Assembly (NCBI GenBank): GCA_937928685.1
Contig: CALGJU010000127.1
Coordinates: 1-38,959 of the forward strand
Direction of reading: 5' to 3'
Source: an uncultured Granulosicoccaceae bacterium
Lineage (GTDB): Bacteria; Pseudomonadota; Gammaproteobacteria; Granulosicoccales; Granulosicoccaceae
Length of the DNA: 38,959 nucleotides
The position numbers were made by a program, and so were the translations under genes. Below the pieces are notes generated by a model that did not search any database, was not told the origin of the DNA, and was given only the letters and a program-made list of their open reading frames with translations. Shown one piece after another: positions 2,013-5,395 of this stretch; the first letter of the stretch is position 1, and every line of letters starts with the position of its first letter.

Positions 2013-2359
2013 TTGCTGCAAAGTATTGGCAGATTTTAATGTAAATCTTACCAATTCAGGCCCTGCTTTCCTTGATTTGTCTGTTCAAACAATACACGAT
2101 ACGTTTGAATTTGCTTGAATTGCATTAACTTAGATCATTTTCCTCATAGTTCACGTGTGTTTTCAGTCGTAAACGGCTCAAAGCGGTAATCTGTAGGAAG
2201 AATGATTGAAGCAGAATGTTGTTTTTTAGCAACGTTCAAATTAATACAAAGCAATTCAGACAAAAAAATTTACTACCCCTGACGCCGAATGCCCCGCCAG
2301 AAAGGCAGCGGCTCTCAATTTACTTACTGGCGAATTGTCCTCCGGAGGGACTTATTCAA
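2013..2359. other. AT-rich intergenic region, rluE to repeat lipoprotein
   Basis: No gene is recognised in this 347-bp stretch. The track extends the next ORF back to 2216, but that extension reads as low-complexity sequence without a signal peptide. The last part holds CGCCAG and CTGGCG arms flanking about 30 nt, and a palindrome CCTCCGGAGG that contains the ribosome-binding site of the next gene. I saw no clear terminator and no promoter better than three or four matches per box. Confidence 0.5.
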
Positions 2360-3526
2360 ATGAAACTAGCAAAAAATATTGGAGCACTCGCGTCAGCAGC
2401 GGTTATCGCTGCTTCAATGTCTGCCTGCTCCACCGCAGGTAAGATGAAGGACGGCGTAACCGGTACTGCTGCGAAAGTAATGGACGGCGGCGATGATGCC
2501 ATGTCCGAAAAAAGCAAAATGCTTGAATCACAGGCTGCCTCACTGGAAGCACGTGCCGCGGAACTCGACAAGCGTGAATCAATGCTTGCAGAGAAATCCA
2601 GTGCCATGGCTGCTGTCAGCGCAACGCCTGCCGGCTCAAACTATGGTGCCGGTGATCTGCTGCCCCCGGGTGCCAAACCTGGTCAGTGCTTCACACGTTT
2701 ATGGGTACCACCTCAGTATCAGACTCTTTCTGAAAGAATGCTGGTTGAAGAAGAAGGCGAGCGAATTGAAATTATTCCTGCCAAATTTAAAACCACTAAA
2801 AAGCGCGTATTGGTAAAAGAAGCTTCTGAAAAGCTCGTGACTGTGCCCGCTACTTTTAAGACTGTGAAAGAGCGAGTACTGGTAAAACAGGCAACCAAGA
2901 AAATTTCGCAAATTAGCTCTGTTTATGAAACTGTCTCTGAGCGTGTGATGGACAAGCCAGCACACACCACTTGGAAGAAAGGCACAGGCCCTATCCAGAA
3001 AATCGATGAAACGACTGGCGAAATCATGTGCCTGGTAGAAGTTCCGGCGACTTTCAAGACTGTTAAGAAGCGTGTACTGAAGAAGCCTGCTTCCACCACC
3101 GTTCAGGATATTCCAGCGGTATATGACACTGTTGAAAAGAGTGTTATCGCAACACCTCCCACCACACGCAAAGTAGCCATTCCAGCGGTTTACAAAACCA
3201 TTACTGTGACTGAAGAAGCATCACCTCCAAAAGAGCGCAGAATCAAGATTCCTGCAAAGTATGCAACCGTCACTAAGCGCAAGCTGGTTAAAGATGGCAT
3301 GATGGATTGGCGTGAGATTCTTTGCGACACCAACATGACTCGTGATCGCATCTCAGCCATCCAGACTGCACTGAAATCTGCCGGCCACAACCCTGGCACA
3401 ATAGACGGCGTTATCGGTGGTGACACCATGAAAGCCGTGAACGCGTTCCAACGTAAGAAAGGATTACCGGTAGATAGATATCTTAATATCGCCACAGTCC
3501 AGGCGCTTGGTGTTTCACCTAAGTAG
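2360..3526 (+). CDS. Repeat-containing lipoprotein with C-terminal peptidoglycan-binding domain
   Basis: From the ATG at 2360 the product is 388 residues. This start is preferred over 2216 because GGAGGG lies 10 nt upstream and a signal peptide follows at once (MKLAKNIGALASAAVIAASMSAC), ending in a lipobox-like MSAC with C23 as the lipidated residue. Residues 50-90 are heptad-like and charged (probable coiled coil). About 120-310 hold eight degenerate units of 22-23 residues, consensus near IPAxYKTVxKRVLVKxA; a DETTG-containing insert separates units four and five. The end (about 325-385) is a PG_binding_1-type domain (IQTALKSAGHNPGTIDG, then FQRKKGLPVD). An outer-membrane protein touching the cell wall is inferred; the repeat function is unknown. 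A strong intrinsic terminator follows. Confidence 0.85.
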   Translation: MKLAKNIGALASAAVIAASMSACSTAGKMKDGVTGTAAKVMDGGDDAMSEKSKMLESQAASLEARAAELDKRESMLAEKSSAMAAVSATPAGSNYGAGDLLPPGAKPGQCFTRLWVPPQYQTLSERMLVEEEGERIEIIPAKFKTTKKRVLVKEASEKLVTVPATFKTVKERVLVKQATKKISQISSVYETVSERVMDKPAHTTWKKGTGPIQKIDETTGEIMCLVEVPATFKTVKKRVLKKPASTTVQDIPAVYDTVEKSVIATPPTTRKVAIPAVYKTITVTEEASPPKERRIKIPAKYATVTKRKLVKDGMMDWREILCDTNMTRDRISAIQTALKSAGHNPGTIDGVIGGDTMKAVNAFQRKKGLPVDRYLNIATVQALGVSPK

Positions 3527-3609: not shown

Positions 3610-3643
3610 AACCCGCTCCGGTTTTCCGGTGCGGGTTTTTTTT
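3610..3643 (+). terminator. Strong intrinsic terminator of the repeat lipoprotein gene
   Basis: AACCCGC-T-CCGG, a TTTT loop, then CCGG-T-GCGGGTT form an 11-bp stem with one T-T mismatch, followed by six further T residues. It lies about 85 bp after the stop codon and is the clearest rho-independent terminator in the window. Confidence 0.93.
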
Positions 3644-3645
3644 AA

Positions 3646-3742: not shown

Positions 3743-5395
3743 ATGTATCCAGAGAACACCGCGGCAAAAGGAATAGCTGCGCTCGTCTCTTTTCTCCTGC
3801 TGATTTTGCCCCCAGCGATATTTGCGGATGAAACTTACGGCGCAACACTAATGGCTGTCGAGCACATCGACTCCGGCCAACACTCGCATAGAGTTACTGT
3901 GCAAATCAGTAACCGTATTGAGCACTTGCTGCTCAATGCACATCCCCACCTGAACGAACTACTGATCGTCGATACCGACGGCCAAACCCATCAGCAAAGT
4001 GGCATTGCCTACACAGGGATTGTCGAATCTCTGCCGTCTTCGTGGGCCAGGCTCGTGATTGATGGTGACTATATTGCTGGCACCATCAACACTCACGGAC
4101 AAAATCTGCACCTGTCGTCTGATGGATCCGGGTTCAATATATCCGGTGTAGAGCGAAGCCTGAGTCGTGACACCACGGTGTTGCCTCCTCCGCTGCCGCC
4201 AAAGCGGCAAATACAACATACAGAATTATTCGAGCAGATCGCAGTCCCCGTGCTGACACCGTTTATCGACAGAGACGGCGTGGTATCCAGAGTGGCTCAA
4301 ATTGGCGTTGTCGTTGATTCCCTTTACGACGAAGCGATAGGCGGCAGAGGCTTGAGTAAAGCCATCGCCACCATCAATTCAGTGGACGGGATATACCGGG
4401 AAAAATTTGGACTGGCTTTAAAAATTGATGTGATTGTGCTGATCACAGACACTGACACTCTGACGCTGAACGGCAATACGCTGGAAGACAACCTGGGTTT
4501 ATTCCGCGATTACCGTATTCAGTCAGACCTGCTGCCGGCCGACCTTAGCCTGGTTCATCTATTCACTGGCGTCGACACTAGCGATGACTCGATCGGGCTT
4601 GCCTATAGTGGTGCCGCATGTCGAACCGATGGCTACGATGTCAGCATGTCCAGGCCATTTCGTTACCCGGTTATTTTAGCGGCTCATGAGATCGGCCATA
4701 ACCTCGGTGCGATGCACGATGATGAGACCACTGAGTGTCAGACTATCAATGACAACCTGATGTTTTCGGAAATAAATTCTACAACAACGCAAGAGTTTTC
4801 AAGCTGCAGCAGCACCGCAATCACCAACCGCCTGCAACAGAGTGCGTGTTACGAAGCGGCCATCGATATTGGCCTTGCACTGACTCAGCTTGAATCAAAT
4901 CAAATACTCGCGACTATCACCAACCACGATACTGAACGTGCTTTTCCAGCCGCAACATTACAAATAGATTTAAAAAATGCGACTGTCGCCGAAGCTCCGG
5001 CAAGTTGTGAACTGAAAGCACCAACTCAGCTTATCTGCGCCGTTGCTGCAACCTATGCAGGCGACCAGCAAGCGGTGGCGGTAAAACTACGATTAGATCC
5101 AAATGAAAAACGCACAGTCAATATCCGCCTGGAGCCTGTTGGTTTTTTTGATCTCACCGATACGAACAACACCGCTGAACTGATCATTCCCAGTGAGCAA
5201 CCCCAGCCATTAGCGAGCACCGGAGGCGAGATCACCGTCCAGGGGGCTGGCGGGAGCATTGCGGGCAATGGATCAACCGGTACCATAGTGACCGGTGGCA
5301 GCGGTGGTGGCAGCTTCGAACCATGGTTGTGGTGGATGCTTTTATCGGGCGTGCTTTACAGGCATTTCGGTATACGCCGAAAAAAGAGCGATTAG
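3743..5395 (+). CDS. Secreted reprolysin-like (M12B-type) metalloprotease with GlyGly-CTERM-like tail
   Basis: This 550-residue precursor starts with a Sec signal peptide (hydrophobic core AALVSFLLLILPPAIFA, cleavage likely near residue 28). A propeptide-like region reaches about 150. The zinc-metalloprotease domain follows (about 175-375), with the extended motif HEIGHNLGAMHD near 314 and a downstream NLMF that could serve as the Met-turn. Residues 380-490 resemble a DUF11/CARDB-like beta domain. The C-terminus is Gly/Ser-rich (GGSGGGS), then a short hydrophobic segment with aromatic residues, then RRKK. That architecture is the GlyGly-CTERM signal, which rhombosortase cleaves and which marks type II secretion cargo. 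Rhombosortase is not in this window. Substrate unknown. It has its own promoter and converges on ispB. Confidence 0.85.
   Translation: MYPENTAAKGIAALVSFLLLILPPAIFADETYGATLMAVEHIDSGQHSHRVTVQISNRIEHLLLNAHPHLNELLIVDTDGQTHQQSGIAYTGIVESLPSSWARLVIDGDYIAGTINTHGQNLHLSSDGSGFNISGVERSLSRDTTVLPPPLPPKRQIQHTELFEQIAVPVLTPFIDRDGVVSRVAQIGVVVDSLYDEAIGGRGLSKAIATINSVDGIYREKFGLALKIDVIVLITDTDTLTLNGNTLEDNLGLFRDYRIQSDLLPADLSLVHLFTGVDTSDDSIGLAYSGAACRTDGYDVSMSRPFRYPVILAAHEIGHNLGAMHDDETTECQTINDNLMFSEINSTTTQEFSSCSSTAITNRLQQSACYEAAIDIGLALTQLESNQILATITNHDTERAFPAATLQIDLKNATVAEAPASCELKAPTQLICAVAATYAGDQQAVAVKLRLDPNEKRTVNIRLEPVGFFDLTDTNNTAELIIPSEQPQPLASTGGEITVQGAGGSIAGNGSTGTIVTGGSGGGSFEPWLWWMLLSGVLYRHFGIRRKKSD

Follow-up and report, generated by a model that had tools for sequence, protein, structure and literature searches.

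A family of putative wall-anchored lipoproteins with a predicted mirror-paired beta-hairpin arm

Tethers between the outer membrane and the cell wall set the geometry of the envelope. What else spans the periplasm, and how length is controlled, are questions on which a gene from an uncultured Granulosicoccaceae bacterium may bear. The window, i.e., the whole stretch of DNA analysed (38,959 nucleotides), carries on its forward strand at positions 2360-3526 a frame of 388 codons for a predicted outer-membrane lipoprotein of 388 amino acids, with an arm of repeats and a peptidoglycan-binding domain. A first, sequence-only reading of this gene took the repeats for a linear tether between outer membrane and wall. 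In its place we propose a wall-anchored outer-membrane lipoprotein with a long antiparallel beta-hairpin arm, an arrangement that we consider probable. The window protein has orthologues at ten loci (L009-L018) with 69-97% identity.

The listed open reading frame begins earlier, at 2216. The ATG at 2360 was preferred because an RBS-like GGAGGG, read from the sequence, lies about 10 nt 5' of it (2344..2349) and because a signal peptide starts there. The signal peptide, MKLAKNIGALASAAVIAASMSAC-S, and the lipobox MSA-C together occupy 2360..2428, with the codon of the lipid-bearing Cys23 at 2426-2428 and a serine at position +2 (MSAC-S, residues 20-24). Under the usual +2 rule, serine at this position directs a lipoprotein to the outer membrane. 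Cys23 is kept in at least 90% of 70 homologues, and a crude rule finds a lipobox in 72 of 97 two-module proteins, so the lipid anchor that had been read from the letters holds up; judged by the lipobox and the serine, the window protein is predicted to be lipidated and located in the outer membrane. Between the lipid and the repeats lies a helical stalk with leucine heptads (2492..2617, residues 45-86). AlphaFold2 predicts it as a helix of 42 residues, with pLDDT above 90 over most of its length and block pLDDT of 92-96 for residues 51-80, and coiled coil, as it had been called, is a fair name for it. Beyond the 3' end of the gene, an imperfect GC-rich stem-loop (3610-3637) is followed by a U tract (whole element, 3610..3645 on the forward strand). 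It folds 3.5 standard deviations better than shuffled sequences (z=-3.5), and the intrinsic terminator claimed for this gene is credible although a pattern scanner missed it.

The C-terminus of the protein contains a PG_binding_1 domain (3341..3508, residues 328-383; Pfam PF01471, E=2.5e-13), which scores 50.5 bits against a gathering score of 23 and is matched in 70 of 70 homologues. This agrees with the peptidoglycan-binding end suggested earlier, and from the match the domain is predicted to hold peptidoglycan. It is also the only part of the protein that Pfam, NCBIfam and the PDB recognise; none of them holds a family for the repeats. When residues 110-322 were scanned alone, there was no Pfam match above the cut-off and no NCBIfam match, and a profile search of the PDB gave no credible sequence match outside the PG_binding_1 domain. 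Two NCBIfam families, HxsA (TIGR03979; 41.4 vs 121.65 bits) and SleB (TIGR02869; 39.4 vs 236.5 bits), appeared below their cut-offs with the best-matching stretch at the C-terminus, and both vanished when only residues 110-322 were scanned. The sequence-only reading had not recognised the repeat as a named domain, and the Pfam, NCBIfam and PDB profile and sequence searches likewise leave it without a family. No description of the repeat or the arm was found in the literature searched; the repeat design is described by no database searched.

Eight repeats of about 22 residues had been counted at first. The eight copies are real (BLOSUM autocorrelation of 1.09 at lag 23, with a maximum of 0.11 in 5,000 shuffles), while the period is 23 rather than 22, and the copies are arranged in two blocks of four, residues 110-201 and 222-313, with a 20-residue loop between them. 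Autocorrelation at lag 112, 1.00, is nearly equal to that at lag 23. On the forward strand, the predicted first strand of the arm with its four 23-residue repeats runs from base Cys110 to tip Trp205 (2687..2974, residues 110-205), and the second, again with four repeats, runs from tip Cys224 to base Trp317 (3023..3319, residues 222-320). In the repeats AlphaFold2 predicts strands whose lengths alternate between 7 and 12 residues, in line with the beta-rich character first proposed for them. There are no tandem repeats at the DNA level in the window gene, which suggests that the repeats are old.

How the two blocks are related was examined by covariation, i.e., mutual information with average-product correction, over 85 distinct domains (Neff 50). 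The dominant feature is the antidiagonal i+j=430, the best of all antidiagonals, with a mean z of 1.0 over 104 pairs. It lies 7.5 standard deviations above 288 other antidiagonals, and each of the four quarters of the arm shows it. Half of the 20 top covarying pairs are at most one residue from it (10 observed, 0.28 expected), and the same register is the best in near and in distant homologues of the window protein when each set is taken separately. Exchanging the second halves among sequences removes the signal (maximum 0.07 in 100 exchanges), and when halves were swapped between nearest relatives 0.40±0.06 was obtained, against 1.01 observed. Charge complementarity also peaks at 430/431 among 21 registers.

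The structure prediction called for as a check gives a compatible picture. With 70 aligned family members, AlphaFold2 gives 7-residue and 12-residue strands with breaks of two residues between them, in a pattern mirrored about 430 (e.g., E110-116 with E314-320 and E119-130 with E300-311); the mirroring is partly a product of the alternating 7/12 layout, and the AlphaFold alignment and the covariation were drawn from one and the same family. For the repeat domain alone, pLDDT is 87 and pTM is 0.32, values that suggest sure local geometry and an unsure global shape, as would be expected of a long slender ribbon. The geometry of the arm was deduced from strand boundaries, confidence and fold matches. 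That repeats 1-4 are antiparallel to repeats 5-8 in the single register i+j=430 is a prediction well supported by computation.

In the proposed hairpin-arm protein, the PG_binding_1 domain would hold the wall and the lipid would hold the outer membrane. The chain would run outwards through repeats 1-4 and back through repeats 5-8, with residue i opposite residue 430-i and with kinks after 7 and 12 paired residues, at positions where Pro-Ala usually meets Ala-Pro. The base would be closed by Cys110 and Cys322, probably through a disulfide. With about 100 rungs of 0.33 nm each, the contour of the arm would be about 33 nm at most, and a nearly invariant loop bearing the unpaired Cys224 would form its end. 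With both ends of the repeat domain at the base, the lipid stalk and the wall domain would meet there as neighbours, and the shaft would project away and carry the tip away from the anchor. We infer the disulfide, the elongated shape and the periplasmic location of the arm from these predictions.

Several conserved details can be placed on this ribbon. At nearly every break in the rung table, the Pro-Ala (or Glu-Ala) of one strand is opposite the Ala-Pro of the other; in the family consensus, for example, P140-A141 faces A290-P289 and P163-A164 faces A267-P266. These breaks look like reciprocal kinks with an alternating spacing of 9 and 14 residues, and the ribbon, whose pTM is low, could curl at them. 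At the base, Cys110 (2687..2689) faces residue 320 in the pairing register, two residues from Cys322 (3323..3325). Both cysteines are invariant in an alignment of 77 domains, and Cys322 follows the base Trp by five residues in 95 of 97 proteins. The distant relatives L206 and L207 lack the tip Cys and keep the pair at the base. A disulfide clamp between Cys110 and Cys322 is therefore likely, as far as the sequences tell. The tip of the arm (2966..3043, residues 203-228), with the motif TTWKKGTGPIQKIDETTGEIMCLVEV and Cys224, is the most conserved part, with a mean entropy of 0.62 bits as against 1.41 bits in the shaft, and the loop from W to C is 18 residues long in most proteins of either class (two-module, 86 of 97; four-module, 72 of 81). 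Because the tip is the most conserved part and its loop is mostly constant in length, a binding function would be expected there. The function that we infer is that of an arm in the envelope whose tip makes contact with a partner. Such an arm might span the periplasm, run alongside the wall or join others in a bundle. More speculatively, the tip may dock on a partner in the inner membrane or the periplasm, or arms may bundle, as a mechanical or spacing element. Conserved residues are found on both faces of the ribbon and so are charged residues; an arm with charge on both faces does not look like a membrane stem.

Covariation is blind to the difference between intramolecular and domain-swapped pairing. 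The strands might be swapped between chains, or arms might be bundled, to give an oligomeric beta rod or tube held by the coiled coil at the N-terminus. A bare ribbon of two strands is poorly stabilised; at the length of the arm it is unusual and probably needs partners, and the leucine heptads of the stalk look like an oligomerising coiled coil. The conservation on both faces and the tip Cys224, which has no partner within the monomer, speak for the same reading, and so do the fold matches of the arm, which are weak and mostly to long-hairpin proteins (phage phi29 collar/tail, lysenin and aerolysin) that assemble into oligomers. On the other hand, the constant 18-residue tip loop makes pairing within one chain easy, and no second antidiagonal for contacts between arms was found; at sums 407 and 453, where the contacts of a wound ribbon would also fall, no clear covariation signal was seen. 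Pairing between chains is possible, in our judgement, though doubtful.

The longer members of the family indicate how a hairpin arm may be extended. The source genome has four family members, two of them two-module lipoproteins and two of them four-module exported proteins. Those other than the window protein are the second lipoprotein and the two four-module proteins, which lack a lipobox (L002, L003 and L004; G000:C56, C136 and C255). In the four-module class (66 proteins, effective number 49), the outer modules 1 and 4 pair with each other at a sum of 434-436, and the inner modules 2 and 3 do so at a sum of 454. Pairing of adjacent modules was rejected, as the other antiparallel pairings reach at most 0.36 and nested pairing is preferred. 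The nesting implies that a four-module protein is one hairpin lengthened between base and tip. The register shift of about 19 is in rough agreement with the unequal linkers of 33 and 18 residues. A lipobox was found in 20 of 81 four-module proteins.

Repeat numbers follow a simple rule. The spacing from Cys to Trp is 3+23n on the outgoing side and 1+23n on the returning side, with the same n in nearly all of about 190 proteins: 4+4 in about 100, 3+3 in about 88 and 2+2 in two. Most of the n=3 proteins (81 of about 88) are four-module proteins in which all four segments have n=3 (3+3+3+3). Equal repeat numbers support pairing without proving it, and simple block duplication could produce the equality too. 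The only clear breach of the rule is a 10+6 protein whose tandem copies look recent; it adjoins a 4+4 protein (both at L204, G297:C2:242100-245000), and neither has a PG_binding_1 domain. Another relative, whose start is off the contig (L352:2-4900, G013:C220), has at least 1,632 amino acids and more than 40 repeats in a module-4-like array, in which a higher-order period of 138 bp can be seen; it also has a D-rich linker. The 10+6 protein and L352, as unmatched relatives, speak against the hairpin reading. Other exported relatives (L199-L201 and L210-L212) are short, at about 190-240 amino acids, with 2+2 or 3+3 repeats and no PG_binding_1 domain; some of them have an extra Cys immediately N-terminal to the base Cys and none after the base Trp.

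Of 48 genomes of the order, 47 have the repeat domain; for the class Gammaproteobacteria the figure is 47 of 369, or about one in eight of those sampled. A scan of GTDB contigs gave 375 relatives, the best named one being 97% identical and from an uncultured Granulosicoccaceae bacterium. The 80 that were kept come from Gammaproteobacteria, Alphaproteobacteria, Desulfobacterota, Acidobacteria, Gemmatimonadota, Krumholzibacteria and Campylobacterales. One alphaproteobacterial genome has two arm-lipoprotein genes in tandem (L104:4761-7158). A viral origin was considered and rejected, as a scan of IMG/VR gave essentially only PG_binding_1 domains and no repeats. The scan of a plasmid collection gave only two partial matches; an unannotated partial match is found on a Methylobacterium megaplasmid.

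The neighbours of the window gene are genes for an Xni-like exonuclease, an RluE-like enzyme and an M12B metalloprotease, together with housekeeping genes, a neighbourhood that is kept in about 15 close relatives. The secreted, reprolysin-like M12B protease (3743-5395) shares synteny with the arm gene at 15 loci, and its glycine-rich, hydrophobic and basic C-terminus resembles GlyGly-CTERM sorting. In some other lineages the gene mscL is close by. In Pelagibius (L093), in a Desulfobacteraceae genome (L100) and at 9 loci of one gammaproteobacterial lineage, it follows the arm gene directly and has the same orientation; in Ectothiorhodospiraceae the two genes are on opposite strands, 1.2-1.6 kb apart. 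The loci with mscL within about 1.6 kb (L059, L060, L067, L069, L070, L074, L088, L245 and L250; L093; L100; L095, L096, L099 and L103) represent three or four separate lineages. A rough estimate that assumes one mscL per about 4,000 genes and about 30 lineages predicts some 0.03 lineages with mscL adjacent by chance; since the observed adjacency is above this, the arm gene has a plausible, if indirect, connection with osmotic or mechanical stress.

Carried further, the arm would be an osmotic or mechanical device that links the inner membrane, for example at MscL, with the wall and the outer membrane and reports or limits the spacing of the envelope under osmotic shock. In addition to the proximity of mscL, a BON+LysM gene (Kbp/YgaU type) flanks the pair in several loci. 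By tomography the two membranes of E. coli are 30-32 nm apart, with a simulated distance of about 8 nm from outer membrane to wall, and the contour of the arm is close to the former value (PMC8824477). However, mscL is not near the window copy or at most other loci, stress genes often cluster without physical contact, and a single span would be out of reach for the 2+2 forms and exceeded by the 3+3+3+3 forms. If straight and perpendicular, the four-module forms exceed 30-32 nm, which argues against a universal role as a ruler of the periplasm. We consider a device of this kind unlikely. Slightly less likely still is the broader proposal of a new class of repeat protein, in which tandem repeats pair with their mirror images across one giant hairpin and are lengthened only in matched steps. 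The wall-anchored periplasmic arm so formed would match the width of the periplasm in length, and its tip would contact the inner membrane, in some lineages near MscL, and so couple wall, outer membrane and turgor control.

The linear outer-membrane-to-wall linker or fibre of the sequence-only reading, with a span that grows with repeat number, would fit the placement of the lipid anchor and the PG_binding_1 domain at opposite ends of the chain, and some relatives (L204 and L352) are expanded in length. But covariation (i+j=430) and AlphaFold place the two terminal residues of the repeat region next to each other, and with these ends paired the lipid-to-wall span would be set by the N-terminal stalk and not by the repeats. 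The comparison of repeat counts gave a fixed number: 77 domains from several phyla, picked for a C-114-C-98-C spacing that nearly all two-module proteins keep, align over 222 columns with zero indels, and it is the stalk, from lipid Cys to base Cys, that varies (26 to 102 residues). A repeat tether of variable span would show the opposite. What remains of the idea that the repeats set a length is the quantised length of the arm, with matched repeats in the relatives; as an account of the lipid-to-wall span it is not supported, and a linear linker is very improbable. A compact local fold, in which each 23-residue repeat is its own beta-hairpin (a meander) or a solenoid coil stacking i on i+23, is hardly credible: strands of 7 and 12 with two-residue breaks would permit a meander and covariation on diagonal 23 is slightly raised, but the meander registers give -0.24 and -0.21, the diagonal reaches only 0.35 and follows sequence similarity between repeats, and the equal repeat numbers of the two halves would be left unexplained.

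Gram-positive surface rods (G5-E type, SasG) have a single-layer extended beta architecture with periodic prolines. The hairpin arm would share these features with them; unlike them, it has no match to G5 or a related family, and its repeats are predicted to pair with their mirror image across the hairpin and not to follow one another in a string. Pal and OmpA-like lipoproteins occupy the same site, with the lipid in the outer membrane and a C-terminal domain on peptidoglycan. In the window protein PF00691 is absent (among Pfam hits with E<=1 and the families listed for 70 homologues), contact would be made through PG_binding_1, and there is a long arm in addition. Braun lipoprotein (Lpp) has lipidation, a coiled-coil stalk and wall attachment in common with the window protein, which by contrast has no match to the Lpp family in Pfam or NCBIfam, has a binding domain in place of the C-terminal lysine, and has repeats that would form an arm. 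The N-terminal domain of SleB (6tci) and Pseudomonas SltB3 (5anz) share PG_binding_1, which accounts for the C-terminal 56 residues; the window protein has no hydrolase or transglycosylase domain, and its remaining residues are unmatched. The best matches in shape to the predicted arm, themselves weak, are phage tail/collar hairpins (6qz9) and pore stems (lysenin, 5ec5, and aerolysin), where identity of about 10% and TM-scores of at most about 0.2 indicate likeness of shape only.

The family is thus found in nearly every genome of its order and in several phyla, yet no library that was searched contains its main domain, and the repeat domain merits a Pfam entry and a structure. With a repeat number that is quantised and matched on two strands, the length of the arm would be readable from sequence and alterable two units at a time.
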